Virus record (IMG/VR): IMGVR_UViG_3300002144_000388
Coordinates: 1-28,451 of that record
DNA from: a virus
Direction: 5' to 3' (one strand)
Length of the DNA stretch: 28,451 nt
The translations under genes were made by a program, and so were the position numbers. This document shows positions 2,510 to 20,697 of this stretch, in pieces. The number at the start of each line of letters is the position of its first letter. Positions within the stretch are counted from its first letter, which is position 1. Under the pieces are notes generated by a model. The model was not told the origin of the DNA and did not search any database. It was given only the letters and a program-made list of their open reading frames with translations.

Positions 2510-3049
2510 CTATGCAACTGATTTTCTACGCCACTCGGCATATAGTCTATTTTTCGAGTCGTGTTGGAAGTCTACCATATCGAAGCAATATGCATTAGCA
2601 AAATGCTCTAAGTATTCTTTACTCCATGTAAAGAATTCGATATTCAGGCATTCGTCGTTGCCGTGGTCGGCTAAACCAGGATTACACCTCCAAAACACTC
2701 TACCAGTGGCTGGATGCACACAGCGACTTACAGCGGCAACTTGCTTGTTGATGTAATCTTCATTACCAAAATTGATACTACCTAAACACAACGCAACATC
2801 GTATTGTTCATTAGTGTAGTAATCTTCAATTGCAACGACTTGGTCAGCACCTACGTCGGTAATGTCAATTCCCCATAGATTTTTAATTTTAGTTTTAAAC
2901 GGATTTGTTCCGCACCCAACATCCAGCACCCTGTCGGATTCTGGATTTATTTTATCAAGTATAGCCCACCCGGAGTGTTGATATTGGTCAAAACTTCTGG
3001 ATCTATTTAACCAAGCTGTGCTAAAATATTTTTCTAGTAAAGTACGCAT
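2510..3049 (-). CDS. SAM-dependent methyltransferase
   Basis: The predicted 179-aa protein has the class I methyltransferase motif I VLDVGCGTNPF (41-51), the glycine loop that binds S-adenosylmethionine, followed by an acidic strand GIDITD. The start at 3049 is preferred to one at 3139: the longer form would overlap the divergent gene by about 80 nt and adds nothing recognisable. With this start, the ATG lies inside an 18-bp palindrome shared with the divergent gene, and no Shine-Dalgarno sequence precedes it. The acceptor is unknown. It is the only minus-strand gene in the left part of the window and converges on the structured-RNA region. Confidence 0.82.
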   Translation of the reverse strand: MRTLLEKYFSTAWLNRSRSFDQYQHSGWAILDKINPESDRVLDVGCGTNPFKTKIKNLWGIDITDVGADQVVAIEDYYTNEQYDVALCLGSINFGNEDYINKQVAAVSRCVHPATGRVFWRCNPGLADHGNDECLNIEFFTWSKEYLEHFANAYCFDMVDFQHDSKNRLYAEWRRKSVA

Positions 3050-3064
3050 ATAAATATTTATATG
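3047..3064. promoter_or_regulatory. 18-bp palindrome with divergent T4-late-like boxes and both start codons
   Basis: CATATAAATATTTATATG is a perfect palindrome. On each strand it contains TATAAATA, the T4 late promoter consensus, and ends in the ATG of the divergent genes at 3049 (minus) and 3062 (plus). The box-to-ATG distance is 13 nt on both strands, which would give near-leaderless mRNAs if the boxes act as -10 elements. Confidence 0.55.
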
Positions 3065-3610
3065 ATACTTCCATCCAGAATATTTTTTACAGGCGTTCCC
3101 GGCAGTCGCTGGAGCGGTCTGGCTCAAAAGATTGAGCAAGAGTTAAATTTAAACATTAGTGATCGCACCCCTGCACGAACTTATGCTCACGGAGAGTTCA
3201 CTGGGCACCAGGGTGCATACTTTGGTACTAGGATGGAATTTCCAGCCAAATTAGATACTGCCACACTGGACGCACCGTACGCCGACCAAGGGCCTGGGAA
3301 ACTTCATAAAAGTCACGAGTGGGCTTATATGCTAGATGCAATTACTGAACTGTATCCACAAGATCCGATATTTCTAATCTATAGGCCAACTAAGTCAAGT
3401 TTTGATTGGTGGAAGCAAGCCGGCGGATGGGACATTAGTTATCCTGACTACAAGTGGTACATCGACGATGAAACTATGATTAGAAAAATTGATGAACAGA
3501 ATCAATTAATTCTTAAATTTGCATCACAGAAACAATTAGTGTGGAGTCATGTCAACGACTTTACTGACATACTAATTGCGTATTATATTCCGGTAGTTAA
3601 TAGTGATTGA
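3062..3610 (+). CDS. P-loop protein, sulfotransferase-like
   Basis: The predicted 182-aa protein begins with a strand and phosphate-binding loop FFTGVPGSRWSG (8-19), like the 5'-phosphosulfate loop of sulfotransferases or a P-loop kinase. Downstream there is a possible second strand FLIYRPTKSSFDWW. Related proteins occur in marine T4-like phages; the acceptor is unknown. There is no Shine-Dalgarno sequence; the ATG closes the palindrome that also carries the start of the divergent methyltransferase. Its end overlaps the GTG start of the next gene by 8 nt, which couples it to the first TctA permease. A nucleotide kinase role cannot be excluded. Confidence 0.6.
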   Translation: MILPSRIFFTGVPGSRWSGLAQKIEQELNLNISDRTPARTYAHGEFTGHQGAYFGTRMEFPAKLDTATLDAPYADQGPGKLHKSHEWAYMLDAITELYPQDPIFLIYRPTKSSFDWWKQAGGWDISYPDYKWYIDDETMIRKIDEQNQLILKFASQKQLVWSHVNDFTDILIAYYIPVVNSD

Positions 3611-5045
3611 AATAACAGTTGCATTATTTGCAGGAGTTATATACGGATTACTAATCGGTATCATTCCAGCGGCAGGTGCTACTACAGGGCTAGTAGCATT
3701 ATATAGTGTAATGCCGTACTTCGTTGACTACCCTAATGCTGGTGTAGTATTTTTAATGGCAGTAGTAGCCGCAAGTACAACAGGTGACAGTTTTACCAGT
3801 ATATTGCTAGGTATACCCGGTAGTAACAGTAGTGCGGCTACGATACTTGACGGATTTCCATTGGCGCAACAAGGTCGTGCAGAATATGCGATAAGCGCGG
3901 CGATAACTGTTAGTACAGTAAATGGACTAATATGGGGCGGACTGGTGTTTTTATTCTTACCGTACTACGCTCAACTAATGCTAGTGCTAGGTGTCCCTGA
4001 GTTATGGGCATTTACTATGATTGCGTTAGTAACTGTTGGGTTTATTAGTACTAGTAATAAAGTTAGGAGTATATTAGCAATTGTACTAGGTCTAGTAGTT
4101 GGTAGTATAGGGGTAGATCCTAACACAAATGCCGCTCGGCTTACAGGTGGCTGGATGTACATTGAAAACGGAATTCAACTAATGCCTGTTGTTGCAGGAT
4201 TATTTGCAATACCTGAACTATTAGAAGCATTTAGAACATCTACTAAACTAAGCGGAGTTATAAAGGTGTCGAGTAAGCAACAGGTAATCGCCGGCATAGT
4301 AGACAGCTTTAAGTACAAGTGGACGTCGCTACGAGGAGGCGCAATCGGCGCGGTAGTAGGGCTACTACCAGGACTAGGCGGAGCAATTAGTGATTGGCTA
4401 AGTTACGGCGCAACTGTAGCAATGAACCCAACTGAACGATTCGGTTCCGGCAACATTAAAGGTGTAATCGGACCCGAAGGTGCAAACAATGCGCAGAAAG
4501 CTACAAGTATGATTCCAACTGTATTGTTTGGAATCCCAGGCGCACCATTTGCGGCGGTACTCATGGGTTTGCTCATGTATTTAAATATTGAATTAGGTAG
4601 CCCTGACCTAATAGACAATACAGAATTTTTTACTAGTATGAGTTTAGGGTTTCTTGCGGCAACAGTAATAGTTGCAGTAATAAGCTACATGACTATACCG
4701 ACTATTAGTAAAATAGCCCACATTCCGTTTATATTGTATTTTCCCATACTGCTTGCAATCATAGTATGGAGTTGTGTACAGTATACCGGAGGATGGGAGG
4801 ACTATGCTATTCTAGTAACTTTTTCGGTTATTGGGATAGCGATGAAAAAATTTAAAATCAGCAGACCTGCATTTTTGATAGCATTTATTCTCAGTGAAAA
4901 AGTAGAAAATATGACTATTCAATTAACTAGTTTGTACAACATTGATATGTTATTATCTCGGCCTGTGTTTATTACACTAGTGGTTGTATTAATTGGTATT
5001 GTAGTTGCTAGTTTTAAACTTCGACTAAAAATTGATTATGCTTAA
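3603..5045 (+). CDS. tctA: TctA-family permease, large subunit of a tripartite tricarboxylate transporter (set 1)
   Basis: The predicted 480-aa inner-membrane protein is near the usual TctA length of about 500 aa and highly hydrophobic. It shows the internally repeated TctA signatures: a GIIPAAG loop (19-25), GIPGSNSSA (70-78) followed by DGFPLAQQGRA, then GLLPGLGGAISDW and GPEGANNAQKA followed by GIPGAP. TctA carries a solute delivered by a periplasmic TctC protein using an ion gradient. The start is GTG at 3603, overlapping the previous gene. A TctC-type binding protein follows 22 nt after its stop. The substrate is not predictable. This is the most canonical of the three permeases here, and an unusual cargo for a phage. 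Confidence 0.9.
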   Translation: MIEITVALFAGVIYGLLIGIIPAAGATTGLVALYSVMPYFVDYPNAGVVFLMAVVAASTTGDSFTSILLGIPGSNSSAATILDGFPLAQQGRAEYAISAAITVSTVNGLIWGGLVFLFLPYYAQLMLVLGVPELWAFTMIALVTVGFISTSNKVRSILAIVLGLVVGSIGVDPNTNAARLTGGWMYIENGIQLMPVVAGLFAIPELLEAFRTSTKLSGVIKVSSKQQVIAGIVDSFKYKWTSLRGGAIGAVVGLLPGLGGAISDWLSYGATVAMNPTERFGSGNIKGVIGPEGANNAQKATSMIPTVLFGIPGAPFAAVLMGLLMYLNIELGSPDLIDNTEFFTSMSLGFLAATVIVAVISYMTIPTISKIAHIPFILYFPILLAIIVWSCVQYTGGWEDYAILVTFSVIGIAMKKFKISRPAFLIAFILSEKVENMTIQLTSLYNIDMLLSRPVFITLVVVLIGIVVASFKLRLKIDYA

Positions 5046-5067
5046 ACTTAACAAAAGGATATTTAAA

Positions 5068-6114
5068 ATGAAAAAGATTATACTACTACTGGCATGTGCA
5101 ATTGGCATAGCCAACACAGCACATGCTGACTATACATTTGTAGTACCACAAAAGCCAGGCGCTGGCACTAGTGTGTGGGCACAAATTGTTGCAACTGAAT
5201 TAGAAAAACATCTCGGCGAAAAGATTGTTATTAAACATCTACCGGGCGCACGTGACATTCCGGGGTTCAATGAGTTCCACAACACGTTACAACAAGACGA
5301 TAAAACCATTATGGTTAGTCATGGCGGCAACGGCGTTGCATTCCTTGAAGAAGATGTAGATTACAACTACGCCGATTACGACAGCATCGGTTTAATGAAT
5401 CTAAATATCATCGCTGGCAAGCAAAAAGGTGACCCGATGGACAAAGTTAGATTTGCCGCAGGGTCAGGAATGACACCCGAGGCACAGGCAATGACTATGT
5501 TAATTTGCGGTCCTAACAAGTCTGTGGATCAATATATTGCTTGCTTCAAAGAAAATGTTGTTTGGGTAAACGGAATGTCGGGCGGAGAAAGACGATTGGC
5601 ATTTAAACGCGGAGAGCTAAATGGTACTCGTGAAAACCCGGCTGCATACAAGAAACATGTTGCGTCAGATGCAAATGCTGAGATATGGTTTCACCACGGC
5701 ATACTAAACGCAAAAGCAGGTACGCATAGCGATGATCCTAACTATCCTGGCTTCCAATTTGAAGTGTTGTTTAAAAAGCGGTGGGGTGTCGAACCAGCTG
5801 GTGCATTTTATGATTCTTATAATTTGTCTAAGAGCTTCCGCGATGGCTTACAAAAAGCATTATGGGTCCGTAAAGGAAACCCGAATACAGAAACTTTGCG
5901 TACAGCATTAACTAAAATGGCAGAAGATCCTGCTAGTCGTGCAGTAATTGAAAAGAATGTTGGTCAATACCAATGGCTAATCGGTGATGCCGGTACCGAA
6001 CAGTTAACTACGTTAATGGGTATGATTACTGCTCAAGCGCTGAAAGATCTAGTGCAATTTAACCAACAAGCTCTTGGGCTAAAAAGTGTGTTTAAGCAAA
6101 ATCTTGTGAAGTAA
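5068..6114 (+). CDS. tctC: TctC-type periplasmic solute-binding protein (set 1)
   Basis: The predicted 348-aa protein starts at ATG 5068, after AAAGGAT; an upstream in-frame ATG at 5032 would bury the signal peptide. The N terminus is a Sec signal (KK, then LLLACAIGIA) with likely cleavage AHA-DY. The mature part has TctC-like features: VVPQKPGAGTSVWAQ, then KIVIKHLPGA. TctC captures a carboxylate or other solute in the periplasm and hands it to TctA. It is slightly longer than typical TctC (about 320 aa). It directly follows the first TctA gene, supporting a functional pair. The signal peptide implies a Gram-negative host. Confidence 0.85.
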   Translation: MKKIILLLACAIGIANTAHADYTFVVPQKPGAGTSVWAQIVATELEKHLGEKIVIKHLPGARDIPGFNEFHNTLQQDDKTIMVSHGGNGVAFLEEDVDYNYADYDSIGLMNLNIIAGKQKGDPMDKVRFAAGSGMTPEAQAMTMLICGPNKSVDQYIACFKENVVWVNGMSGGERRLAFKRGELNGTRENPAAYKKHVASDANAEIWFHHGILNAKAGTHSDDPNYPGFQFEVLFKKRWGVEPAGAFYDSYNLSKSFRDGLQKALWVRKGNPNTETLRTALTKMAEDPASRAVIEKNVGQYQWLIGDAGTEQLTTLMGMITAQALKDLVQFNQQALGLKSVFKQNLVK

Positions 6115-6123
6115 CAAGCGGAT

Positions 6124-6345
6124 ATGAACCATATCACCGTTGTAAAATACCTTAGTGCAGTTACTATTCTTTGTGCAATGGTACTGCACGTACTAGGTGC
6201 AACACCGTGGAATAGTATTGTTCAGATGCTTGGTGCGTCAGGTTGGATTTATGTGGGATATAAATGGAAGGAGCGGGCGTTAATATTAAATTTTCTTCCG
6301 CAATTCTTCATTATATTGCCGATGCTGTTTTATTTGTATAAATAA
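6124..6345 (+). CDS. small two-helix membrane protein, possible TctB stand-in
   Basis: The 73-aa protein has two or three hydrophobic segments (about 8-27, 30-45 and 52-72). It sits between a TctC gene and a second TctA gene, the place where a tctB gene (small membrane subunit, about 150 aa, four helices) would be expected. It is only half that length and no clear TctB motif is seen, so a TctB-like role is an inference from position. The start has only a weak purine-rich upstream sequence. Confidence 0.6.
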   Translation: MNHITVVKYLSAVTILCAMVLHVLGATPWNSIVQMLGASGWIYVGYKWKERALILNFLPQFFIILPMLFYLYK

Positions 6346-6361
6346 AATTATCAACTAATGC

Positions 6362-6402
6362 GCAAACATATTACTAGGTTTGCTACAATCGTCAGTATAA
6401 AT
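6362..6402 (+). promoter_or_regulatory. hairpin and TATAAAT box before the second TctA
   Basis: GCAAAC (6362-6367) and GTTTGC (6378-6383) form a 6-bp stem with a 10-nt loop. TATAAAT (6396-6402) resembles the T4 late box and lies 12 nt before the ATG at 6408, almost the same spacing as at the palindrome near 3050. No Shine-Dalgarno sequence is visible. Confidence 0.35.
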
Positions 6403-6407
6403 CCCAC

Positions 6408-7703
6408 ATGATAGAATTAATAGCAGTAGCAATACTAGGTATTGTTGTTGGCATAGCCGCAGGGCTATTGCCAGTGCTTCCAGTATTCACTGGACCACTG
6501 ATATTATATTATTTTGTTGGAGACTATTACCCACTGGAATACTTGCTGATATTTTGGTTAGCTAGTTACAGTGGAACGCAATTCTTTGGTAGTATATCTA
6601 CTATTACTACTAAGATACCCGGCGAAGAAAGTTCGGCGATTTACCTTAAAGATATAGACTATCTAACGCACGACCAAAAGCGTAATTTACTGTATGATAC
6701 AGCATTGGGCAGTTGGCTAGCTAGTACCGTTAGTTTAATTTTTGTTTGGTTGGTAGTAAAATATTTAGGAGTTAGTTACTTCCCAGAGTTGCTGAGTCTA
6801 CCAGTGCAATTGAGTGTGTATGCCTTGGCTATCGGATTGTTTTTCTTTATAGGTAACAATTGGACAGTAACGGCATTGTTAATTGCAGTAGGGCTATTCA
6901 TTGGCCCTAGACAGAATTATGCATTGCCACCTATGTGGTACGATGTGCAACAGGTATTCAATGGATATACATTATATATGGTAGTACTAGGTACAATATT
7001 ATTTCCTAGCATATTTGACAAAGTTGAAAAACTACCGCACATCGAAAAGTTTGGAAAAGTACGCAGTCGAGGATACAGTGTATTAACTGGATTAAAAAGT
7101 AGCCTAATAGGCGCTATTGCTGGATTGATACCTGGACCTAGTGCAAGTGTTGCAACCGCATTTGCGTACAAGACAGCAGGAGAGAGTCGGTACAAACGAA
7201 TCTTAAATGCAGAAACTGCAAACAACAGTGCAGTGATAACTTGTGCAATTCCGTTCTTTTTAATGGGATTGCCTATTAATCAGAACACACTGTTAATGAG
7301 TAATATCATGGATGTACAAAGTCTGAATATTATTCATGCAATTCTCGAGCCTGGTATATTTGGTTTACCGGTGCTTGATGTTGTAATGGGTGCTAGCCTA
7401 ATAATAATGTTAATTTATTTCTGGCTTAGCACACACCTAATCGACTTCTACGCAGGCATTGTGCAAAAACTACACAATCGTATGCGTTGGGTTGTAGCCC
7501 TGCTATTGATAGCAATGGTTGGGATCGATATACAGTTTGCTGAGATCAATTTGATAAAATATTTTGTATTATTGTCAGGATTTACAGCATTTGGTTTTCT
7601 ATTAAAGCGTTATAGGATATCAGCTATTCCGTTTTTGTTTGCACTTATACTAGCAGACAAGATAATTTGGTTAGGTATTCAAACTATCGCTATATACTTT
7701 TAA
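6408..7703 (+). CDS. divergent TctA-family permease (set 2)
   Basis: The predicted 431-aa multi-span membrane protein follows the TctA plan: GLLPVLP near the N terminus, GTQFFGS and KIPGEESSA in place of the canonical GIPGS loop, GLIPGPSASVATAFAY in the second half, then AETANNSAVI and GLPIN. It is about 50-70 residues shorter than bacterial TctA. Shared motifs (GxQFFGS, PGExSS, ETANNSA) tie it more closely to the permease at 11744 than to the one at 3603, so the two form a divergent subgroup. A binding-protein gene follows 30 nt after it. Substrate unknown. Confidence 0.8.
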   Translation: MIELIAVAILGIVVGIAAGLLPVLPVFTGPLILYYFVGDYYPLEYLLIFWLASYSGTQFFGSISTITTKIPGEESSAIYLKDIDYLTHDQKRNLLYDTALGSWLASTVSLIFVWLVVKYLGVSYFPELLSLPVQLSVYALAIGLFFFIGNNWTVTALLIAVGLFIGPRQNYALPPMWYDVQQVFNGYTLYMVVLGTILFPSIFDKVEKLPHIEKFGKVRSRGYSVLTGLKSSLIGAIAGLIPGPSASVATAFAYKTAGESRYKRILNAETANNSAVITCAIPFFLMGLPINQNTLLMSNIMDVQSLNIIHAILEPGIFGLPVLDVVMGASLIIMLIYFWLSTHLIDFYAGIVQKLHNRMRWVVALLLIAMVGIDIQFAEINLIKYFVLLSGFTAFGFLLKRYRISAIPFLFALILADKIIWLGIQTIAIYF

Positions 7704-7733
7704 ATTAAAAAGAGTTTATCCTAAAGAGTAAAA

Positions 7734-8561
7734 ATGAACTTAGTAAAACACATTGTGCCCGTAGTATTGTATGCACTAAGCATTGGCACTGCTTATGCGT
7801 CTGACCTTACAGTAATTAACCAGAGTAGTGCCGCTAGCCCAGCCGGTGTGTACGCTCAGGCTGTACGGAAAAGTCTTGATGCTAAGTGGTATCAAAGCAG
7901 TAACTGCAAAGATGCCGCAAACAAATTTCAGACGACTGAAAATGCAGTAATGGTCTACAACTCAAGTGTAGCGTTTGCCGCAAAAAATAAGAAAATGGAA
8001 AACTGCCAATTAGATCAAATTGCTAAAAATAAAGCATCAGTGGTTCTAGTTAGCGCAAGCCGCATGCTTATTTGCTCAAAGCCTGGGCAAGCTAAGTCGT
8101 TGTTAACCGACAAAGTGTCTCTTGGCATGGCTAGTATGTATGCAGTACCAAAGCATCAAGCACAATGGAATGCCAATGGAGGAAACGTCACGTTGGTCCC
8201 ATACAGCGGAAGCAAAACAGTTTTAACAGCTTTGCTAGCAGGTGATATCGAGTGGGGGTGGATGGGCGAAAGTCTTGCACTAAAGCAAGGCGACAAGTTA
8301 TCATGCCAATACAGTACTGATCCAGCTAGCGATAATTTTTTAGGTAAAGCAGTACCGTCATTGACAATTGCTGACTTTGCAATTAATGTAGTAGTCTACA
8401 CTAATGCTAAAGACCCTATTGCTGTAGTATATGCATTAAAGGGAGATGCTGATTTCCAAAATTACCTTATTAAAGGAAAGAATGCAACTACATTCTCAGT
8501 AACTGACGTATCATCTGTTGATGCGTATGTTACAACGATGTTCGATACTTGGGCCGATTGA
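7734..8561 (+). CDS. periplasmic solute-binding protein for TTT set 2
   Basis: The predicted 275-aa protein has a Sec signal peptide with cleavage near AYA-SD. The mature part resembles a compact TctC: a lobe ending in ASRMLICSKPGQAK, then VTLVPYSGSKTVLTALLAGDIEWGWMG, the usual TctC region where a solute-site strand precedes 'GDIE/D'. Four cysteines (in NCKD, NCQL, ICSK, SCQY) match in order those of the protein at 13053, suggesting two disulfides and export. It follows the second permease by 30 nt, with AAAGAG before the ATG. Confidence 0.75.
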   Translation: MNLVKHIVPVVLYALSIGTAYASDLTVINQSSAASPAGVYAQAVRKSLDAKWYQSSNCKDAANKFQTTENAVMVYNSSVAFAAKNKKMENCQLDQIAKNKASVVLVSASRMLICSKPGQAKSLLTDKVSLGMASMYAVPKHQAQWNANGGNVTLVPYSGSKTVLTALLAGDIEWGWMGESLALKQGDKLSCQYSTDPASDNFLGKAVPSLTIADFAINVVVYTNAKDPIAVVYALKGDADFQNYLIKGKNATTFSVTDVSSVDAYVTTMFDTWAD

Positions 8562-8595
8562 GCTCAACAATAATAGTATTATATTTCAATATGCA

Positions 8596-8614
8596 CCTGT
8601 TGATTGGCAACAGG
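8596..8614 (+). terminator. stem-loop after TTT set 2
   Basis: CCTGTTG and CAACAGG form a perfect 7-bp stem with loop ATTGG. There is no immediate T tract. It may act as an RNA 3'-end stabiliser or weak terminator, just before the strong terminator at 8652. Confidence 0.45.
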
Positions 8615-8651
8615 ACGACTCAACTTATTATTTAAATATTATAATCTAATT

Positions 8652-8682
8652 AGACATGGTGGATTACCCACCATGTCTTTTA
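8652..8682 (+). terminator. strong rho-independent terminator
   Basis: A perfect 11-bp stem (AGACATGGTGG with CCACCATGTCT), 5-nt loop ATTAC and a TTTT tract. It separates the first transporter operon from the dCMP deaminase gene, whose ATG is only 23 nt further. Confidence 0.82.
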
Positions 8683-8704
8683 TCTACTTTACAGGAACGT
8701 TAGC

Positions 8705-9181
8705 ATGAAAGAAAAGTTTGTTAATTTGTATATCGATTGGGCAACACGGTTAGCGGAGCTTAGTTACGCTAAACGATTACAAGTCGGCGCTGTTATTGTC
8801 AAAGACGACACAGTTATTAGCTATGGTTACAACGGTATGCCATCAGGGTGGGATAACAACTGCGAAAATGCAATCTATTGTGGACCCAATGACAACAGTG
8901 TTGATTTTGAATATCGGACCGAAGATGGCACAGCATATAATTTAAAAACAAGACCAGAAGTTTTACATGCTGAATCCAATGCTATTGCAAAGTTAGCTAA
9001 GACAGGAAACAGTGGCGCAGGCGCTGATATATTTGTAACGCATAGTCCTTGTATCGAATGTGCAAAGCTAATATTTCAAAGTGGTATCAGTAACGTGTAT
9101 TACCGCAATAGTTACCGTGACGATGCTGGAATTACATTTTTAGAAAAAAGCGGGATAAATGTAACACACGTAGATAAATAA
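8705..9181 (+). CDS. cd: dCMP deaminase
   Basis: The predicted 158-aa protein has the zinc cytidine/deoxycytidylate deaminase motifs HAE (88-90) and PCIEC (115-119). It makes dUMP from dCMP, feeding thymidylate synthesis during phage replication; T4 gene cd is the counterpart (193 aa, so this one is shorter). The N-terminal YAKRLQVGAVIVKDD stretch is also typical. The start has AGGA 9-12 nt upstream. Flanked by a terminator upstream and a stem-loop downstream, it may be its own transcription unit. Confidence 0.93.
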   Translation: MKEKFVNLYIDWATRLAELSYAKRLQVGAVIVKDDTVISYGYNGMPSGWDNNCENAIYCGPNDNSVDFEYRTEDGTAYNLKTRPEVLHAESNAIAKLAKTGNSGAGADIFVTHSPCIECAKLIFQSGISNVYYRNSYRDDAGITFLEKSGINVTHVDK

Positions 9182-9207
9182 CTTGCTAGCAATCATTGCT
9201 AGTCAAG
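9182..9207 (+). terminator. stem-loop after dCMP deaminase
   Basis: CTAGCAAT and ATTGCTAG are inverted repeats around one base, extended by CTTG/CAAG with a bulged T. The stem is strong but lacks a T tract, so it may be a terminator or a processing/stability element. Confidence 0.45.
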
Positions 9208-9249
9208 AGTGTTAATTGCATTTAAGCATACCAATCTCAAGGACATCGA

Positions 9250-10140
9250 ATGAAATTCTTTAAATCTCTCCAAGTGCTGGTTGGAGACATCACATGTTCA
9301 CTGAACATGACCTACCACAACAAATTGCTAACCACTGTATACTTTTGTCATATAGCGGGTCTTGCTGGTCTAATTTACTACTGGGATCCAATGTTTTTAC
9401 TTTGGACCTTGCTTGGTAAATTTTTATTCCACTTCATCGGAACTGAAGTTGCCTTACATCGATTGTTTGCTCATAAGACATTTAAAACGGCTAAGTGGAA
9501 AGAGCGTACTTTAGCATGGTTGAGCATGTACGGTTTGTATGGTAGCACTTTAGGTTGGTGTGCTAACCATCGCGTACACCATAAAAATTCAGATAAAGAA
9601 AACGATCCGCATCCTAGTCTTGATGTGTTTAATACATGGTTTTGGGTTGACACAGAAAAAGTTGCAACAGTAAGCCCGACTGTTATTAAAGACTTATTGC
9701 GTGATCCAATTCATAGATTTATGCGTGATCACTATTTTAAAATTTACTACCTAACACTAGTAGTGTTTGCTTTGTTAGTGTCTCCTAAGTTTGTAGTATA
9801 TTTCTTCATATTACCGGGCGCAGTAGCACAGTTAAGTGGCGGCATCGTTAATGTTGTTTGTCACCGATGGGGTTACCGAACGCACGAAACCGACGACCTG
9901 AGTAGAAATAATTTCTGGGCAAATATGTACGGTTTTTTCAGTGGCGTTGGACTACATAATAATCATCATAAATTCCCGTGGAAATATACAACTCTTCCAG
10001 ACAATCCAAAATGGCACGAAATTGATTTAGGAGCTTGGTTTATTAGGGTGTTCCTGTTAGATCGCACCGATCCTGCTAGAACTACACAACAAGACACAAC
10101 CGAACAATTCCTTAAAGATACAGGAGTAACTGCAAAATGA
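9250..10140 (+). CDS. membrane fatty acid desaturase 1
   Basis: The predicted 296-aa integral membrane protein has the three histidine boxes of delta-9-type acyl desaturases: HX4H (H70-H75, HRLFAH), HX2HH (H107, H110, H111) and HX2HH (H236, H239, H240). These bind a di-iron centre that inserts a double bond into a fatty acyl chain using O2 and electrons. Length and box spacing fit the acyl-lipid/acyl-CoA desaturase family. A strong AAGGA site precedes the ATG. The next gene is a second desaturase overlapping by ATGA. Desaturases are occasionally carried by marine phages and may adjust membrane fluidity; the position of desaturation is not known. Confidence 0.9.
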   Translation: MKFFKSLQVLVGDITCSLNMTYHNKLLTTVYFCHIAGLAGLIYYWDPMFLLWTLLGKFLFHFIGTEVALHRLFAHKTFKTAKWKERTLAWLSMYGLYGSTLGWCANHRVHHKNSDKENDPHPSLDVFNTWFWVDTEKVATVSPTVIKDLLRDPIHRFMRDHYFKIYYLTLVVFALLVSPKFVVYFFILPGAVAQLSGGIVNVVCHRWGYRTHETDDLSRNNFWANMYGFFSGVGLHNNHHKFPWKYTTLPDNPKWHEIDLGAWFIRVFLLDRTDPARTTQQDTTEQFLKDTGVTAK

Positions 10141-10916
10141 TACTAAGTCCGTATAAGCAAACACTATGGGTTGTATGGGGGAACCATATCCTAGCATTAG
10201 CTACATTGATTTTATTCTTCAGTTGGTGGATGATCCCGCTGGCATTTGTTGCCGCTCGCATCTTCGGGGTGTTTAGTGAAGTGGGAGTACATAGGTATTT
10301 TACACACAAATCTTTTACAGTTGAAAAACGTTGGAAAGAGCATGTGATGAAAGCGTTTGCTTTCTTAGCAGGCCAAGGTGCAATTTTAAGTTGGGTCACT
10401 GTACATAGACACCACCATGCACACGAAGACCAGCCGGGAGATCCGCATAGCCCATTGTTGTTCCCTGCATGGAGAATCTACGTAGGATTATTTCCTGCTG
10501 ATTACAAAAAGAATTTAGTAATGGACTTGATCCGACATCGAGATCGTCGTTACTTTGTATTTGAAAATAACTATTACTGGTTGATGTGGACTGCACTATG
10601 GGTAGTATCGTATTTAATTAGTCCTGTATTGTTCTTTGCAGTAGTAAGCGGTGCCGCAGGTTGGTACGGTATTACAGCCTTAGTTAACATTGCATTACAT
10701 AGTTCTATGCTAGGTTACAAAAAGTATCCCGAAGCAGTAGCAACAAACAGCGTGTTCCTTGACCGTATTACGGGAGTAGGTTATCATAACAACCATCACA
10801 AAAATTCACGCAGCTACTCATATAGCTTGGATGGAGCAGAGCCAGACTGGATTGGCAACGTCATTGAGCGTTTTGCAGACTCTGTTGCTGTACCACAAGG
10901 AACACCTAATGCCTAA
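10137..10916 (+). CDS. membrane fatty acid desaturase 2
   Basis: The predicted 259-aa protein has HX4H (H52-H57), HX2HH (H90, H93, H94 in VHRHHHAHED) and HX2HH (H217, H220, H221). Its start overlaps the stop of desaturase 1 (ATGA), so the two are translationally coupled. It is shorter and clearly diverged, so this is an old duplication or two acquisitions rather than a recent copy. The box-2 context (RHHHAHEDQPGDPHSP) is typical of bacterial delta-9 enzymes. The two could act on different positions or form a heteromer; neither can be decided here. Electrons might come from a ferredoxin such as that at 16677, an inference. Confidence 0.9.
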   Translation: MILSPYKQTLWVVWGNHILALATLILFFSWWMIPLAFVAARIFGVFSEVGVHRYFTHKSFTVEKRWKEHVMKAFAFLAGQGAILSWVTVHRHHHAHEDQPGDPHSPLLFPAWRIYVGLFPADYKKNLVMDLIRHRDRRYFVFENNYYWLMWTALWVVSYLISPVLFFAVVSGAAGWYGITALVNIALHSSMLGYKKYPEAVATNSVFLDRITGVGYHNNHHKNSRSYSYSLDGAEPDWIGNVIERFADSVAVPQGTPNA

Positions 10917-10938
10917 GTTCTTACAATCAAATTGATGC

Positions 10939-10974
10939 AGTCTGGCAATCAAGCATTGCCTACCTAAGCAGACT
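10939..10974 (+). promoter_or_regulatory. nested stem-loop in the gap before the gene at 11000
   Basis: AGTCTG (10939-10944) pairs with CAGACT (10969-10974) and encloses GCAAT/ATTGC (10945-10949 with 10955-10959). There is no T tract. It could be a leader structure, since the next ATG lacks a Shine-Dalgarno sequence, or a 3' stabiliser of the desaturase mRNA. Confidence 0.4.
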
Positions 10975-10999
10975 AACGTAAACAGATATTCTTAATCAA

Positions 11000-11668
11000 A
11001 TGAACAATGTAACAGTCAAAGAATTTAGTAACCAAGAGCTCTTACAACCAGAAAATGCCACCGCTCTTAAAGAGCTGGCAATAGTTTGGCTGGGAGCCAC
11101 GAAATCTATGGGCACACCGACCTTCCGTGACATGGCCGGATTTAAAAAGTTTTTAAATAAATATCCTGGTTTTTTTGTGTGTGCATTTCAAAACAATATT
11201 ATGACAGGATATATGAAATGCATTCCTTCAGGATTACACTCCACTATTCCCATGTACCAACTTAACTGGGTACAGGTGCGTAAGGGGTTGTATAACACAG
11301 CAGACTTTAGCAATCCTGAACATCCATGGATACATATTACCGATTACATTCTGTCAAAGATGGAACAGGCTGGATATTATTCATGGATGAACTTCCAAGC
11401 GATTCGCCCTGCTTTACGAAAGATGCACAAAGGGCGTCGCGACATGATGCGATTTTGTAAAAAAGGGTGGGATGATGAAAAACAACAGTATAGATACATC
11501 CGCCTTCCGCTGCATATAGTCCCAGCCGGAACGTTATCTGACCACGAAACATATAAGTTACGCCTTGGCCCGGTTCCATGGGATCATGACGTGGTTGTAT
11601 ACCAATGGGTATTAAGGTCAGAGTACCGCCCAGAATATCAGCAAGTTAAAGATTTCTGGGTTGATTAA
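11000..11668 (+). CDS. unknown protein, possibly GNAT-like
   Basis: The predicted 222-aa soluble protein is not firmly recognised. It has an N-terminal region rich in charged residues, a central QLNWVQVRKGLYN segment, and a basic stretch LRKMHKGRRDMM (about 138-149). The mixed alpha/beta pattern with 'ITDYILSKMEQAGYYSWMNFQ' loosely resembles an acetyltransferase fold, but no acetyl-CoA loop is evident. It lies between the desaturases and a TctA operon with its own promoter downstream. The start codon has no clear ribosome-binding site. Confidence 0.55.
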   Translation: MNNVTVKEFSNQELLQPENATALKELAIVWLGATKSMGTPTFRDMAGFKKFLNKYPGFFVCAFQNNIMTGYMKCIPSGLHSTIPMYQLNWVQVRKGLYNTADFSNPEHPWIHITDYILSKMEQAGYYSWMNFQAIRPALRKMHKGRRDMMRFCKKGWDDEKQQYRYIRLPLHIVPAGTLSDHETYKLRLGPVPWDHDVVVYQWVLRSEYRPEYQQVKDFWVD

Positions 11669-11677
11669 TTATGGACA

Positions 11678-11715
11678 CCAGTGTAGTTGACACACTGGCA
11701 GTTCTAGTCTATAAT
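11678..11715 (+). promoter_or_regulatory. sigma70-like promoter with inverted repeat over the -35 box
   Basis: TTGACA (11687-11692), 17-nt spacer, TATAAT (11710-11715). CCAGTGT (11678-11684) and ACACTGG (11692-11698) form a perfect 7-bp inverted repeat around the -35 box, suggesting an operator or a terminator/promoter overlap. It drives the third transporter set. Confidence 0.75.
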
Positions 11716-11743
11716 TAACCATTATAATATGAATAGGTGAGTA

Positions 11744-13015
11744 ATGTTTGACATAGTTTTTGCTGGCTTAGTTGGAGTATGCTCGGGTGTGATAACTGGC
11801 ATCGCTCCCGGGATACCAATCCTATTGGGATTTTTTATATTTTTGCCACTGATTGATCAGAGTGCAATGCCGTTGTTGACCTATGCAATAGTATCAATGA
11901 TGGGAAGCCAGTTCTTTGGAAGCCAGGCAGCACTGTACTACAAGGTGCCTGGCGAAGCAAGTTCGTTTCCTGTGCTGTTTGAGATGAAAAACTTTACTAA
12001 TCCTGCAGACATATACAAAGCAGTGCAATCAACTACCTACGGAAGCCTGGTTGCTAGTCTTTTTGGCACAGCGGTTCTAATGGCAACGTTAATGTTTGGC
12101 CTGGTGTCGGGGCTGTATCTTCCGATACTATTGAAATTTTCAATCTTTCTATTCGTATTTGCAATTGGCATATTTGGGGACAAGAAGCCTGTTACTAATA
12201 TTATTGTTATCGCAACGGCAATTTTTATAGCGTACTACGAAGATGTTGCGCCATACATAGGCACACCAGGGTATTACTTTAATAGCATACTAGCATTAAT
12301 TATTATTGTAGCATTTCAATTAGCGTTTAAGAAACCAGAGGCTGTCAGTGGTAATGTTGTTGATAATGTCACAAAGACTCCGTTTAAATGGTCTCCGTGG
12401 ATTTGGATCTATATCAAGTACAGTGCTATCGGATCGCTGTTTGGATTTATTCCGCAAGCTGGCGCAACTATATCTAGTTATGCAACATACATGTGGGAAA
12501 AGTACCGTAACTCAGATTCTATAACCAGGATCACTGCTAGCGAAACTGCTAATAATTCTGCAATTGTTGTAGCATGGTTACCATTGATTGTATTCGGAAT
12601 TCCAATCAATGCATCTGAGATCATGCTGGTTCAGTACTATAACCAGCTCGGGCTAGACTTTTCTTTTATGCGGGATTTTACAGCACAGCTAACACTATTA
12701 GCAGTATTAGTGTTGTCCACATTAATATATTCTGCACTAGCACTTACTACTAATAAATTACTATATGGCTCACTGGCATTGATCCTGAATCATAGATGGT
12801 TTGGGTTAGCAGTGGGGGTGATTAGTGTGTTTATATTCTTTTATGTAAACAACTATACAGCATGGTATATATTCATTCACTTGGCGGTGTTTCTACCGCT
12901 AAGTTATATAACTGCTAGACTGGAAATTAGCCTGGTACCGATTGTGATTGGTCTATTGTTGTCTGACCAACTAACAAGAACTGGACATCAAGTCTTTCAA
13001 ATTTATATACTATAA
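11744..13015 (+). CDS. divergent TctA-family permease (set 3)
   Basis: The predicted 423-aa multi-span membrane protein shares with the permease at 6408 the motifs GSQFFGS, KVPGEASS, SETANNSAIV and GIPINASE. It also keeps the TctA-type GIAPGIP loop near the N terminus (about 20-26) and FIPQAGATISSY in the second half. It is shorter than bacterial TctA (about 500 aa) and belongs to the same subgroup as set 2. AGGTGAG precedes the ATG. The binding-protein gene follows 37 nt downstream and a sigma70-like promoter lies upstream, so this is an independent transporter operon. Confidence 0.8.
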   Translation: MFDIVFAGLVGVCSGVITGIAPGIPILLGFFIFLPLIDQSAMPLLTYAIVSMMGSQFFGSQAALYYKVPGEASSFPVLFEMKNFTNPADIYKAVQSTTYGSLVASLFGTAVLMATLMFGLVSGLYLPILLKFSIFLFVFAIGIFGDKKPVTNIIVIATAIFIAYYEDVAPYIGTPGYYFNSILALIIIVAFQLAFKKPEAVSGNVVDNVTKTPFKWSPWIWIYIKYSAIGSLFGFIPQAGATISSYATYMWEKYRNSDSITRITASETANNSAIVVAWLPLIVFGIPINASEIMLVQYYNQLGLDFSFMRDFTAQLTLLAVLVLSTLIYSALALTTNKLLYGSLALILNHRWFGLAVGVISVFIFFYVNNYTAWYIFIHLAVFLPLSYITARLEISLVPIVIGLLLSDQLTRTGHQVFQIYIL

Positions 13016-13052
13016 TAATTTTCAACGTTCAAACTTAAAAAAGGAAAATTCG

Positions 13053-13898
13053 ATGAACTTTAAAACTTTACTCACAACTACAATTATTACCTCAGTGATT
13101 GCAACATCGGCGCAGGCATTTGATGTGGTAGTAACTTCAACACTAAACGGTCCACAAGGGGTAATGATTAATAACATCAGCGCCGAAGCAGCTAAATCCG
13201 ATATTGTTGTAGTTGCTAAACAGACCGGCGGATGTGGCGAAGCAGTTAGTTATTTTAATACTACCACTGCCCCAGTGGGTATTATTTGGTCCAATAGCAT
13301 GTATCGCAACAGTGCAAAGTCTAAACAGAATTGCATTATTGATGTAGAAAAATCCACTCCAGTGATGGTTGCATACGCACCATACGATATTTGTGTACGT
13401 GCAGGTTACAAACTTAAACCGGGTGCCACGCTGTTGTTTGGTAACACTAAGTTTAATCCCCAAGTAAGTCAACTAGAGCATATTAACACTAATAAAATGA
13501 ATATTACATTTAAGAATGTAACATACAGCGGAAGCGGCACAACGTTAACTGGATTAGTTAACGGCGACATTGATGTGGCAATGATTGCTACGTCAGTGGC
13601 ATCTGCAGGTGTTAAACTCGGAACCATTGAGTGCCCGTACTCCACTGGTTCAAGTGTACACGGACAAGTTCCATTTTCAACCTTTGCAGAGCCAGGCGCT
13701 TTAAGCGAGTTTAGCCTTGGCATGATGCTGTTTGTTCGCAATATGTCAGCTGACGATGTTGCTAAATTGCAATCTGCATTGGCGAACACAGTTCAGACGC
13801 TAACAGCGCAAGATATGGTTAACGTAACCACTGATATGTCTAAGCCAACATTTGACTACTTCATGACAGGTGCTAAATTACAAGTTGGATGGAAGTAA
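13053..13898 (+). CDS. periplasmic solute-binding protein for TTT set 3
   Basis: The predicted 281-aa protein has a Sec signal peptide (cleavage near AQA-FD) and a strong AAGGA site. The mature part is TctC-like: VTYSGSGTTLTGLVNGDIDVAMIA corresponds to the YSGSKTVLTALLAGDIEWGWMG region of the protein at 7734. Four cysteines (GCGE, NCII, ICVR, ECPY) occur in the same order as in that protein, so the two are paralogues and probably contain two disulfides. It ends one base before the next start, linking the PP-loop gene to this operon. Confidence 0.75.
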   Translation: MNFKTLLTTTIITSVIATSAQAFDVVVTSTLNGPQGVMINNISAEAAKSDIVVVAKQTGGCGEAVSYFNTTTAPVGIIWSNSMYRNSAKSKQNCIIDVEKSTPVMVAYAPYDICVRAGYKLKPGATLLFGNTKFNPQVSQLEHINTNKMNITFKNVTYSGSGTTLTGLVNGDIDVAMIATSVASAGVKLGTIECPYSTGSSVHGQVPFSTFAEPGALSEFSLGMMLFVRNMSADDVAKLQSALANTVQTLTAQDMVNVTTDMSKPTFDYFMTGAKLQVGWK

Positions 13899-13899
13899 C

Positions 13900-15126
13900 A
13901 TGCAGTTAATTAGCTCATCAGCCGTGGGAGACCGTAACGGCTTTTATCAAGTAGGCAATCGAAAAACTTACTTAAAAACTGAGCTAATGGACTGGATGCA
14001 CCACTTGCCAACAGACTGGCATTGGAACTATAACGATGAGTTCTTTGGGCAGTTTGATTGGCAAGTGGAGCCATCAGAAGATATACGTGAGTTGTATAAG
14101 CAACGTGCATTAGAACTCAGACAAAACTACGACTATCTTGTTTTATACTATAGCGGCGGCCACGACAGTTCTAATACACTGTATGCATTCCTAGATAACG
14201 GAATCCCACTGGACGAAGTGTGTGTGTATTACAGTAGACACGATACAGTTAGTAACCAGTATAAAGAGCTTAATACACTTACATGGAATAAAGTTAAGTG
14301 GCTTAAGGATAAGTATCCACATCAGAAATTTCGCATCATCGATTATGCTGATATGTATAAAAATTGGTCTGACATTATAGCTAGCTACGGATACAAAGAC
14401 GACTTGTTTGATGTGTTTGGCAGTATGCTTAGTGTTAATCGTATTATTGCAGACGAGTTTTACCAAACAGTGCCAGACTGGAACCAGTTGATTGCTAATG
14501 GAAAAAAGTTTGCCTGGGTATTCGGCGCAGATAAACCAATGATTAGGTATCTAGACGGTGCATGGATATTCAACTTCCACGATGCATTTGTACAATGTCG
14601 AATGACGCCATTGCGACAGTTATACGATGATGGTACCCGCGGTAGCTATGAGTACTTTTATTGGAGTCCAACTGAGGCCTGTCAGAAGATTATTCGCAAG
14701 CAATGCCATTTGCTAGCACATGCATATAACGAGCAAGCAAAGATCGACTTTAGTAAAATACCCGGCGCAAAAAAGTTTAATCCAGGGTACGGATGGGAAA
14801 TAGACACTATGAGCAAACAGTTTGTTAGTACCATCTACCCTCGCTTATTTGACTTTGGCGAAACATATTACGTTGAAAAGCATCACCAATACATATTCGG
14901 TAATAGGGACCAATGGTTCTTTGACAGCAATCACGACGGTGCTCGCAAGCACCAAGACATGTACCAAAGTTTAAATAGTACATTGTATAGCCACTACCAT
15001 AGTTGGATGAACGATGGCACTAGGATCGAAAACGGCTTAAAAAACTGTATAAGTCAAAACTATGTATTTTTAGAAAATAAATCCATAGAAGACCCCGACG
15101 TAAAGTTACATTCTGGTGTAATTTAA
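13900..15126 (+). CDS. PP-loop ATPase / adenine nucleotide alpha-hydrolase-like protein
   Basis: The predicted 408-aa protein starts at ATG 13900, one base after the preceding stop. The phosphate-binding PP-loop YYSGGHDSS (83-91) matches the SGGxDS motif of asparagine synthetases, tRNA thiolases and QueC-like enzymes, which adenylate a substrate. The rest is rich in aromatic residues and not assignable; no glutaminase domain is present, so it is not a complete AsnB. Possible roles are nucleotide, tRNA or small-molecule modification. Similar PP-loop proteins occur in marine T4-like phages. Co-transcription with TTT set 3 is likely; functional coupling is not shown. Confidence 0.75.
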   Translation: MQLISSSAVGDRNGFYQVGNRKTYLKTELMDWMHHLPTDWHWNYNDEFFGQFDWQVEPSEDIRELYKQRALELRQNYDYLVLYYSGGHDSSNTLYAFLDNGIPLDEVCVYYSRHDTVSNQYKELNTLTWNKVKWLKDKYPHQKFRIIDYADMYKNWSDIIASYGYKDDLFDVFGSMLSVNRIIADEFYQTVPDWNQLIANGKKFAWVFGADKPMIRYLDGAWIFNFHDAFVQCRMTPLRQLYDDGTRGSYEYFYWSPTEACQKIIRKQCHLLAHAYNEQAKIDFSKIPGAKKFNPGYGWEIDTMSKQFVSTIYPRLFDFGETYYVEKHHQYIFGNRDQWFFDSNHDGARKHQDMYQSLNSTLYSHYHSWMNDGTRIENGLKNCISQNYVFLENKSIEDPDVKLHSGVI

Positions 15127-16218: not shown

Positions 16219-16680
16219 ATGAAAGTAGTAATCAACACCCAGTACAAAGAAAACTACGGTACGGTAGCTGAACCCTACTGGAAGTTCAAAGGCGGCTCTA
16301 CTTACATTGTGGTGGCAGCAGATCGTGCTGAAGCAGATCAAATTATTGCACAAGGTATGCCTACTCTTACCGCGTTGATCGAGGACTGTAACCCAATGTG
16401 TGAGGAGTACATCATTGGAACCAGCATCCAGTCTGATGGTGCGCAGATATACGAAGACTGGGAATCACCTACTCAGCTGATGTGGAAGGCCGGTCGCTGG
16501 AGTGCATACCGTGTTACTGAAAATGGTGAGTATGGTTATATGCGCTCAGAGATAGCCCGCAAAATCGAAACGTGGGACATGATGATGGCAGGCGAGCGTG
16601 AGAATTATGTCTGCACTTACGTGATGCGTGATGGCAGGATTGTTAAAGAATCAGATTTATCTTTGGAGTTAGTGGATTGA
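16219..16680 (+). CDS. hypothetical early protein (153 aa)
   Basis: A canonical AGGAG lies 6-10 nt before the ATG. The product is soluble (153 aa) with no recognised motif. It begins [16 protein letters not shown] and contains a tryptophan-rich middle ([16 protein letters not shown]). It is the first gene of an operon whose later genes overlap by ATGA or TTGA, including the ferredoxin that starts inside its stop codon. Such proteins are common in T4-type early regions and usually target host functions; none can be assigned. Confidence 0.75.
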
Positions 16681-16997
16681 CATTTCTAGTTACTGATAAT
16701 TGTATTAAGTGTAAGCACACCGATTGTGTTGATGTTTGTCCTGTGGATTGCTTTCACGAAGGCCCTAACTTCTTAGTAATTAATCCAGACGAGTGTATTG
16801 ATTGTGGGGTATGTGTGCCGGAATGCCCTGTTGATGCAATTTCGGACGAAGGTGATCTAGATGATAGAGACTTTTGGTACGACACAAATAAGAGGTTAAG
16901 CGTCAAGTGGCCTGTAATCTATAAAAAGAAATCTGCATTACCTGGCGCGGCAGAGTGGGACGGCGTGCCAGATAAAATCAATTTACTTGAAGAATGA
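16677..16997 (+). CDS. fdxA: 7Fe ferredoxin, FdxA type ([3Fe-4S][4Fe-4S])
   Basis: The predicted 106-aa protein closely follows the pattern of Azotobacter ferredoxin [39 protein letters not shown] and PECP. By that alignment C9, C17 and C50 ligate a [3Fe-4S] cluster; C21, C40, C43 and C46 ligate a [4Fe-4S] cluster; C25 is the extra conserved cysteine. Length matches (107 in Azotobacter). The start is TTG overlapping the previous TGA (TTGA), so translation is coupled. It is an electron carrier, possibly for the desaturases or the radical SAM enzyme (inference). Phage ferredoxins known from cyanophages are plant-type 2Fe; a bacterial 7Fe type is unusual. Confidence 0.93.
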
Positions 16998-17684: not shown

Positions 17685-17897
17685 ATGAACGAACGAATTC
17701 AACAACTTGCTGAACAGGCTGGATGGGGTAAGGGAGAAACACATGACGATTGTATGCAGTGCAGTCCTTTTGACAAAGAAAAGTTTGCCGAGTTGATTGT
17801 TCGGGAATGTGCTGCCGAGGCCGACAAGCAAACTATTTACTGTAGAGGTATTCCATGGGGTAAGTGGATTAAGCAACATTTCGGAGTTAAAGAATGA
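17685..17897 (+). CDS. small phage protein of the KFAELIVREC family (copy 2)
   Basis: The start is set at 17685 (MNERIQQLAEQ), matching copy 1; an extension to 17646 would overlap the 22-aa frame. The 70-aa product has KFAELIVREC and a C-terminal HFGVKE as in copy 1, but a different middle (GETHDDCMQCSPFDKE, with two cysteines spaced CX2C). Only one CX2C pair is present, so metal binding is uncertain. It ends in ATGA with the next gene. Confidence 0.72.
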   Translation: MNERIQQLAEQAGWGKGETHDDCMQCSPFDKEKFAELIVRECAAEADKQTIYCRGIPWGKWIKQHFGVKE

Positions 17898-18193
17898 GAA
17901 ATTCTGACGTACAGCGAGAGATCAACTCCATGACAAAAAATATGAGTAAGTATAAAACAACTATTTTGCAAGTGTGTATTCATCGTGAAGAAGTTAATCC
18001 AATTTTTGGAGAAGGCAATACCTATGTTAGTGTAGATGATGAAGCAGGCGGCCCGTTCCTTACTATTGAGCAACACAACGATGACATTGAGCCCGGAAAA
18101 GTTCGCATGGACTATGAAGAATTTTTAGCAGTTGCAGAAGCGGCAAAAATGCTAATGCATCAGATGTACATTGAACAGGCAGCACAAGAATGA
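17894..18193 (+). CDS. hypothetical early protein (99 aa)
   Basis: Starts by ATGA overlap. Soluble, acidic in the middle (VSVDDEAGGPFLTIEQHNDD) with a helical C terminus (FLAVAEAAKMLMHQMY). An internal ATG at 17930 is a possible shorter start. No family recognised. Confidence 0.65.
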   Translation: MRNSDVQREINSMTKNMSKYKTTILQVCIHREEVNPIFGEGNTYVSVDDEAGGPFLTIEQHNDDIEPGKVRMDYEEFLAVAEAAKMLMHQMYIEQAAQE

Positions 18194-18375
18194 ACGACCG
18201 TCTGGCATACTACAATGTGATCCAGGCAGAAATTGCTACCTTATACGATATGCTTCGTCCTGAAGATACCGGGCACATTTATACAGCAATCAGTGTGTTG
18301 GAACACCGACTGACTGAAATTAAAACAGAGATGACTGCGCAAGAACGCACGTTTATTATACTTAGAGACGGGTAA
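18190..18375 (+). CDS. small hypothetical protein (61 aa)
   Basis: Starts by ATGA overlap and is the last gene of the operon. The 61-aa product looks helical (MNDRLAYYNVIQAEIATLYD...). It is followed by a stem-loop/promoter cassette. No family recognised. Confidence 0.63.
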   Translation: MNDRLAYYNVIQAEIATLYDMLRPEDTGHIYTAISVLEHRLTEIKTEMTAQERTFIILRDG

Positions 18376-18398
18376 GTTTGCACCCAGCGGTTAACTAA

Positions 18399-18465
18399 GT
18401 GTTGCATAAAAACAACACAAATTTGGTAGATTTTGGTTGACATTATAGTTGGTGATCTGTATAAT
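18399..18465 (+). promoter_or_regulatory. PeSL-like cassette: stem-loop plus early promoter
   Basis: GTGTTG-CATAAAAA-CAACAC (18399-18418) contains the same 18-nt sequence seen at 16124. It is followed by TTGACA (18437-18442), 17-nt spacer, TATAAT (18460-18465), then AGTATACATAGACAGCAACA and AGGAG. Nearly the same sequence recurs around 19290. Confidence 0.8.
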
Positions 18466-18501
18466 AGTATACATAGACAGCAACAAACAGGAGTAAGCAA
18501 A

Positions 18502-18675
18502 ATGGCAGGTAAAGCAAAATCGGTATATCTTCAAGTAGTCCCAAAAGGGGAGTTGATCAGCATATTTAAAAAAGTATTTTTCGACGCTAAAAGTTATAAT
18601 GAGTTTGTAAAAACAGATGAGTTCAAAGAAAAATATCCCACAGATCAATATCAAATTATTAAAGAAGTTTATTAA
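18502..18675 (+). CDS. small hypothetical protein (57 aa)
   Basis: The start ATG 18502 is chosen because AGGAG lies 9-13 nt upstream; a longer frame back to 18433 would run through the promoter. The product is basic and soluble (MAGKAKSVYLQVVPKG...). No family recognised. Confidence 0.7.
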   Translation: MAGKAKSVYLQVVPKGELISIFKKVFFDAKSYNEFVKTDEFKEKYPTDQYQIIKEVY

Positions 18676-18694
18676 TAATACAACGGAGACTAGT

Positions 18695-18931
18695 ATGGGA
18701 TATCGTGTTATAGCAGATAAACAACAAATGGATATGATGCGTGAAACATACGGTCCGCGCAAAGGACTTGAAGGTCCGTTTAACTTCGGCGGCAGGGTGT
18801 TGTATTATGACAACAAAGAAGGTCAGTACTACGATCCTACTACTGATTTTTATGTTGAGCAGGATGAAATGGACATGATTCATGCTCAACTGTTAACTGT
18901 AATTAGTGGCAAGGAAACAACAGAAATCTAA
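18695..18931 (+). CDS. small hypothetical protein (78 aa)
   Basis: The start at 18695 (MGYRVIADKQQM) has GGAG 8-11 nt upstream; a longer frame back to 18617 would overlap the previous gene. The product contains a RVLYYDNKEGQYYDPTTDF stretch. It ends inside the stem-loop that precedes the next promoter. No family recognised. Confidence 0.68.
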   Translation: MGYRVIADKQQMDMMRETYGPRKGLEGPFNFGGRVLYYDNKEGQYYDPTTDFYVEQDEMDMIHAQLLTVISGKETTEI

Positions 18932-18970
18932 TAGATTTTGGTTGACAAGAAACGCCCATATCTGTATAAT
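18924..18970 (+). promoter_or_regulatory. PeSL-like cassette: stem-loop plus early promoter
   Basis: AAATCT-AAT-AGATTT (18924-18938) spans the stop codon of the previous gene. TTGACA (18942-18947), 17-nt spacer and TATAAT (18965-18970) follow, then AGTATACATAGCAAAGCAAGGAG. The spacer AACGCCCATATCTG nearly equals that at 19299. Confidence 0.78.
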
Positions 18971-18999
18971 AGTATACATAGCAAAGCAAGGAGTCGGAC

Positions 19000-19263: not shown

Positions 19264-19318
19264 AAACAACAAAAATTAGCAGATTTTGGTTGACAAAAAA
19301 CGCCCAGATCTGTATAAT
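19255..19318 (+). promoter_or_regulatory. PeSL-like cassette: stem-loop plus early promoter
   Basis: GTTGTTT (19255-19261) and AAACAAC (19264-19270) form a stem spanning a stop codon. TTGACA (19290-19295), 17-nt spacer and TATAAT (19313-19318) follow, then AGTATACATAGACAGCAACA and AGGAG, identical to the copy after 18465. Confidence 0.8.
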
Positions 19319-20687: not shown

Positions 20688-20697
20688 AATTAAGTCG

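Follow-up and report, generated by a model that had tools for sequence, protein, structure and literature searches.

The TctA and TctC families have an established role in import, in which a periplasmic TctC protein binds the solute and TctA acts as the permease (PMC5812351). The bacterial tripartite tricarboxylate transporters (TTT; TctCBA, TC 2.A.80) share with the phage locus described here the TctA domain, a TctC/Bug-type fold and adjoining genes, whereas the phage sets are devoid of TctB, carry the permease gene first instead of following the tctCBA order, and include two short permeases, TctA2 and TctA3, that fall in a phage-only clade. An archaeal TctA has been suggested to suffice without TctB or TctC (PMC5812351); the phage TctAs are likewise devoid of TctB but are accompanied by a binding protein, the likeness being one of description and not of archaeal sequences. 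On viral DNA, the SUP05 viral contigs were noted to bear tctA, as no more than a domain hit (PMC4164917), and tricarboxylate transport genes have been mentioned in passing for a norB/nirK myovirus scaffold (PMC8115048). Both cases resemble the present one in their tctA-type genes, whereas the passages concerned describe no TctA–TctC pairs, multiple sets or PP-loop partner. Full-text searches of a literature with few subscription papers and preprints found nothing on phage TctA–TctC pairs, several sets per phage or a PP-loop linkage; the multiplicity, the phage-only lineage and the PP-loop cassette appear to be undescribed, phage tctA itself having been mentioned already.

The window analysed here is the whole of the 28,451-base IMG/VR virus record IMGVR_UViG_3300002144_000388 (positions 1–28,451), handled as a fragment. 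It holds three TctA–TctC pairs (sets 1, 2 and 3), which probably belong to a jumbo-phage metabolic island encoding three independent, TctB-less carboxylate importers that feed the infected cell. In every set, the TctC-type protein would bind its solute, a carboxylate or an amino acid, in the periplasm and pass it to TctA; the permease would import the solute using an ion gradient, and the infected cell would gain carbon or nitrogen beyond what its own transporters supply. The features are given below, with identities to one related phage represented by contigs G001 and G002 (99.9% identity across their overlap).

1238, 11687, 18437, 18942 and 19290: five exact TTGACA-N17-TATAAT promoter sites
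2510–3109, minus strand: methyltransferase-like gene beside set 1 (weak Methyltransf_23 match; start trimmed from the 3139 ORF)
3062–3610, plus strand: 182-aa protein beside set 1 with a P-loop-like GxPGSxxS motif (no Pfam match)
3603–5045, plus strand: TctA1 permease, 480 aa, GTG start (PF01970, 312.9 bits)
5068–6114, plus strand: TctC1 binding protein, 348 aa, signal peptide (AlphaFold pLDDT 92; PDB fold matches)
6124–6345, plus strand: DUF6552 small membrane protein, 73 aa, behind TctC1 (PF20189, E 1.1e-9)
6408–7703, plus strand: TctA2 permease, 431 aa (PF01970, 109.4 bits; 69% orthologue in G001/G002)
7734–8561, plus strand: TctC2 binding protein, 275 aa, signal peptide (62% orthologue in G001/G002)
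8705–9181, plus strand: dCMP/cytidine deaminase-like gene in the conserved island (PF00383, E 1.5e-21; syntenic in G001/G002, 63%)
9250–10140, plus strand: fatty acid desaturase 1 (PF00487, 38.7 bits; 65% in G001/G002)
10137–10916, plus strand: fatty acid desaturase 2 (PF00487, 39.7 bits; 64% in G001/G002)
11687–11715, plus strand: the exact promoter before TctA3
11744–13015, plus strand: TctA3 permease, 423 aa (PF01970, 101.7 bits; 59% orthologue in G001/G002)
13053–13898, plus strand: TctC3 binding protein, 281 aa, signal peptide (AlphaFold pLDDT 79; PDB fold matches; 62% in G001/G002)
13870–15126, plus strand: PP-loop ATPase-family protein (SGGHDS), cassette partner of TctA3/TctC3 (73% in G001/G002)
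19586–28084, plus strand: jumbo-phage replication block with AAA protein, UvsW helicase and DnaE-like piece (PHROG and tblastn matches)
27207–27593, minus strand: single minus-strand gene within the replication block

The assignment of the window to a phage is secure from sequence comparison. The UvsW-type helicase shares 53.7% identity with that of Sinorhizobium phage Phosso (469 kb) and ~52% with those of Atu_ph07 and PA5oct, the DnaE-like polymerase piece is 51% identical to its Phosso counterpart, and PHROG models concur with the jumbo-phage assignment of the block. Phosso has the matching order of helicase, DnaE-like piece, minus-strand gene and virion structural protein, and the order of the replication block is also common to contigs G031, G039 and G047. 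The window is accordingly read as a fragment of a jumbo phage with a Phosso/Atu_ph07/PA5oct-like replication block, for which we infer from the relatives a full genome of several hundred kilobases. An independent contig matches positions 17,780–28,195 with 99.96% identity. The island sits in a phage genome since the replication block shares its record, and the location in a bona fide phage genome that is asked of a phage auxiliary metabolic gene (AMG) is seen both on this record and in its relatives.

The preliminary description had named three TctA-type permeases, each followed by a signal-peptide-bearing TctC-like protein. All three permease frames are open on the plus strand and exceed the PF01970 cut-off of 28.9 bits with coverage near the full length of the model, which places them among TTT permeases of the TctA type and not in unrelated membrane families. 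The core motif (E-x-x-N-N ... P ... G-I/L-P) is kept in TctA1–3, and the C-termini of TctA2 and TctA3 are ~50 residues shorter than that of TctA1. Pairwise identity among the three is 18–26%, and the divergence of the three pairs would fit different substrates. No PHROGs model matched any of the six transporter proteins.

The binding-protein ORF overlaps or starts at most 40 nt after each TctA, and the N-termini of the three ORFs read as signal peptides with an AxA cleavage site, the start of TctC1 likely being 5068 and not 5032. Profile searching, which had recognised the permeases in three of three cases, did not extend to their partners, as the Pfam TctC and NCBIfam models gave no match to TctC1, TctC2 or TctC3, and PDB profile searches were no more than suggestive (BugD, E 0.038; TphC, E 0.1). 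Because sequence models fail to recognise TctC here, assignment by Pfam and NCBIfam was replaced by a comparison of the TctC1 and TctC3 folds with the PDB, using AlphaFold models built from 29 aligned phage sequences for TctC1 and 7 for TctC3. The best 17 fold matches of the TctC1 model were all TctC/Bug proteins, with MatC and BugD first, and so were the best 14 of the TctC3 model, with Bug27 first. TctC2 is 27.6% identical to the TctC3 orthologue of G002 (E 1.9e-7). TctC1 and TctC3 are thus predicted to be of the TctC type by modelled fold, and TctC2 is a putative member by homology alone, so that the signal-peptide-bearing, TctC-like protein claimed behind each TctA is borne out by the signal peptides of all three and by the modelled TctC/Bug fold of TctC1 and TctC3.

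No candidate for TctB (PF07331) was found among the window ORFs with predicted transmembrane segments. Because TctB is absent from the window, the three sets are termed two-component, TctB-less and TTT-like within this 28.5-kb fragment, a distant TctB elsewhere in the genome being possible. The three TctA–TctC pairs of the preliminary description stand, but they do not make up full tripartite systems. The DUF6552 membrane protein has homologues in ~20 related viral loci, mostly right behind TctC1, while its homologues in 16 alphaproteobacterial genomes had no TctA or TctC within loci of ~3 kb. As a cryptic TctB, DUF6552 was rejected upon profile comparison, which showed no TctB similarity. TctB may be substituted by a host TctB or, for set 1, by DUF6552, or TctA may act alone. 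A genuine TctB–TctA pair (PF07331) occurs on the jumbo-phage contig G039 (L161 16985–18918 and L162 1250–2000), followed after ~2.3 kb by a protein with a TonB-dependent-receptor plug domain.

The gene directly after TctC3, missed in the preliminary description, encodes the PP-loop ATPase-family protein. The family lies near TctA, before or after the pair, in 34 of 41 short-TctA loci, which are partly near-duplicates and not all independent, against none of 80 UvsW loci and one of 80 set-1 loci as controls. Three of the seven short-TctA loci without the gene are cut by contig ends, and in L274 it lies beyond the compared stretch and is visible in L005. In the reverse survey, TctC-like proteins were present in 56 of 80 PP-loop loci and TctA in 14, so the binding protein with the PP-loop gene is a more general phage association than TctA with the PP-loop gene. 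The family was observed at window 13870–15126 and in L273–L313 and L370–L449, and many other phage contigs combine it with TctC-like proteins and several PP-loop paralogues, TctA being absent. A conserved protein that by eye resembles a TRAP DctP binding protein, with no obvious signal peptide, lies near phage PP-loop and TctC genes (L417 2951–3910, L439 7190–8161, L442 8730–9695 and L273 4963–5931).

The SGGxDS-type motif is nearly invariant in a 30-member alignment of the family, whose profile gave a weak match to LarE in the PDB (E 0.0022) that is confined to the PP-loop region. The phage family shares the SGGxDS motif with LarE-type PP-loop ATPases, to which its profile match is tentative, whereas it is linked to TctC and TctA, and no Pfam or PHROG model is common to its members. 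In a cassette with set 3, and perhaps with set 2, the PP-loop enzyme likely acts on the imported solute and would activate or modify a carboxylate, and the picture of transport alone is amended in that transport is probably not the whole story for this set. A tentative reading, held at a little under even confidence, is that of a phage-specific import-and-activate cassette of short TctA, TctC and PP-loop protein, to which the set 2 pair and the unrelated lineage of set 1 have been added; a particular carboxylate would be taken up and converted for the virus's own use. In G010 (L152 10803–12357), CT_C_D and CT_A_B (PF02682, PF02626) are inserted between TctC and the PP-loop gene, and these PxpB/PxpC-like 5-oxoprolinase subunits hint at pyroglutamate or related acids as candidate substrates in G010, which is not evidence for the window.

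At least 457 stretches related to TctA1 were detected in IMG/VR, 80 of which were analysed. TctC1 was present in 77 of 82 set-1-related viral loci, the methyltransferase-like gene in 64 and the 182-aa GxPGSxxS protein in 53, and with hardly any exception among the related loci TctC came immediately after TctA. G031 (316 kb), G039 (182 kb) and G047 (204 kb) bear set 1 together with the replication block. Of 48 contigs chosen by UvsW alone, 3 carried TctA; among the four longer than 150 kb the figure was three, and most of the others are too short to judge its presence. The statement that three sets are exceptional for a phage held in a survey of 88 other distinct TctA-bearing viral records, where two copies were counted in 12 (near-duplicates of one virus included, and one copy in G130 partial) and three in none. 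One or two TctA genes are a recurring habit of such phages and the window is its extreme; as it is a 28.5-kb fragment, its three sets are a minimum.

Exact TTGACA-N17-TATAAT sites were observed five times in the window against 0.05 expected, and the one at 11687 ends 29 nt upstream of the TctA3 start codon. G002 has a close variant of this promoter upstream of its TctA3. Several of the five share CTGTATAAT and a conserved downstream stretch. Taken together, scans for promoter-like and terminator-like sites gave no excess over shuffles, the exact 12/12 promoter sites alone being significant, and the five exact sites probably form a family of phage promoters for the host RNA polymerase. The transporter reading frames are intact throughout. 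Among the relatives of set 1, median dN/dS was 0.055 for TctA and 0.078 for TctC, indicating strong purifying selection, while comparison of sets 2 and 3 between the window and G002 gave pN of 0.20–0.28 versus pS of 0.67–0.78, values reported in place of dN/dS because synonymous substitution is almost saturated. For the same reason purifying selection is claimed for these two sets without a statement of its strength. Syntenic retention and low dN/dS indicate that the genes are kept by selection in phages, as expected of AMGs.

The gene order from sets 2 and 3 through the replication block is the same in the window and in G001/G002, where the AAA protein is 74% identical and UvsW (in G001) 78%. 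Given the same order and comparable identities, the age of sets 2 and 3 in the phage lineage seems close to that of its replication genes. In a midpoint-rooted TctA tree of 84 sequences, TctA2 and TctA3 fell among 43 phage sequences split from all 30 bacterial sequences with support 1.0, "phage-only" being relative to a bacterial sample of one phylum; the nearest relatives of TctA2 among 399 Pseudomonadota genomes share 24–27% identity. TctA1 is one of 11 sequences in another phage clade (support 1.0) whose sister group is formed by bacterial TctA–TctB fusions (0.98); these fusions are the nearest bacterial relatives of TctA1, at 34–37% identity. One bacterial-genome sequence alone falls in this phage clade, on contig L186 of a Candidatus Pelagibacter MAG, which also gave the only bacterial-genome match for TctC1; as the contig bears the set-1 neighbour genes, it probably represents phage DNA binned with Candidatus Pelagibacter and has little bearing on the host. 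On this tree and these identities, the three pairs are best regarded as old phage lineages and not as recent host cargo.

An assembly chimera, which the preliminary description had set as a refutation, or freshly captured host DNA is hardly credible as an explanation of the island. For sets 2 and 3 it was rejected on their synteny in G001/G002, which extends from within the island to the replication block, and on the distance of bacterial relatives. The compared part of the G001/G002 phage showed no set 1, and no second contig was found spanning the exact junction of sets 1 and 2, which leaves some room for a chimera there; the occurrence of set 1 and its own neighbour genes on jumbo-phage contigs, together with its distant bacterial relatives, makes this unlikely as well. 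We infer expression, transport, ion coupling, substrates and benefit to the infected cell, and import is the likeliest function because it is established for both families. Against the importer reading, TctB is missing, unlike in canonical systems, TctA2 and TctA3 are short, and the binding proteins have diverged beyond the reach of the Pfam TctC model. Secondary transporters can run reversibly, so the TctAs might export metabolites in infection, but each TctA comes with a periplasmic binding protein, as is characteristic of uptake systems, which renders export very improbable.

A dedicated pathway, of which sets 2 and 3 would form one half, refines the importer explanation for these two sets only, and we give it somewhat less than an even chance. 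TctC and TctA would import one particular carboxylate, and the PP-loop enzyme would adenylate it and couple it to something such as an amide, a tRNA or DNA base, or an envelope component, so that the product and not general nutrition would be the purpose. The adjacency of PP-loop gene and TctA and its rarity in the controls argue for such a pathway, as do the PP-loop loci that lack TctA and still carry a TctC-like protein and the PxpB/PxpC-like subunits gained by the G010 cassette, but the weak LarE match is the sole structural lead for the family, and set 1 is without a PP-loop partner. Phage TctC-like proteins often neighbour a PP-loop gene in a locus devoid of TctA, which also agrees with an envelope role, for instance in sensing or in excluding other phages that rely on TctA/TctC-type proteins of the host, transport then being a side effect; sensing has been proposed for orphan bacterial TctC proteins (PMC5994714). 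Every TctC in the window is, however, paired with an intact permease that keeps its core motif under purifying selection, and such a role is unlikely here.

Phage metabolism is mostly discussed as enzymes, while the window presents binding-protein-dependent importers of old phage lineages, three on one fragment. On the importer reading, phages of this kind would supply infected hosts by means of their own uptake systems, and virus-specified nutrient uptake in the infected cell, if functional, would affect models of carbon and nitrogen flow. The linkage of PP-loop, TctC and TctA offers, for an enzyme family without prior description, a specific hypothesis that can be tested, and the PP-loop cassette is the part that could prove more than the known phage auxiliary transport genes.

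Other genes accompany the transporters. The two desaturases stand in tandem between sets 2 and 3, and the related phage (L118 6283–8770) has a third, related ORF; an adaptation of the membrane by these enzymes is speculation. G002 carries a Vut_1 family transporter (PF02592; L118 5012–5665) between TctC2 and the dCMP deaminase, which is absent from the window. Five tRNA genes (Ala, Gly, Glu, Tyr and Asp) lie upstream of the island at 23–2075, with a radical SAM protein gene interspersed, and the downstream phage region encodes a ferredoxin (Fer4, DUF3470; 16677–16997) and a PIG-L-type deacetylase (PF02585; 24752–25306).
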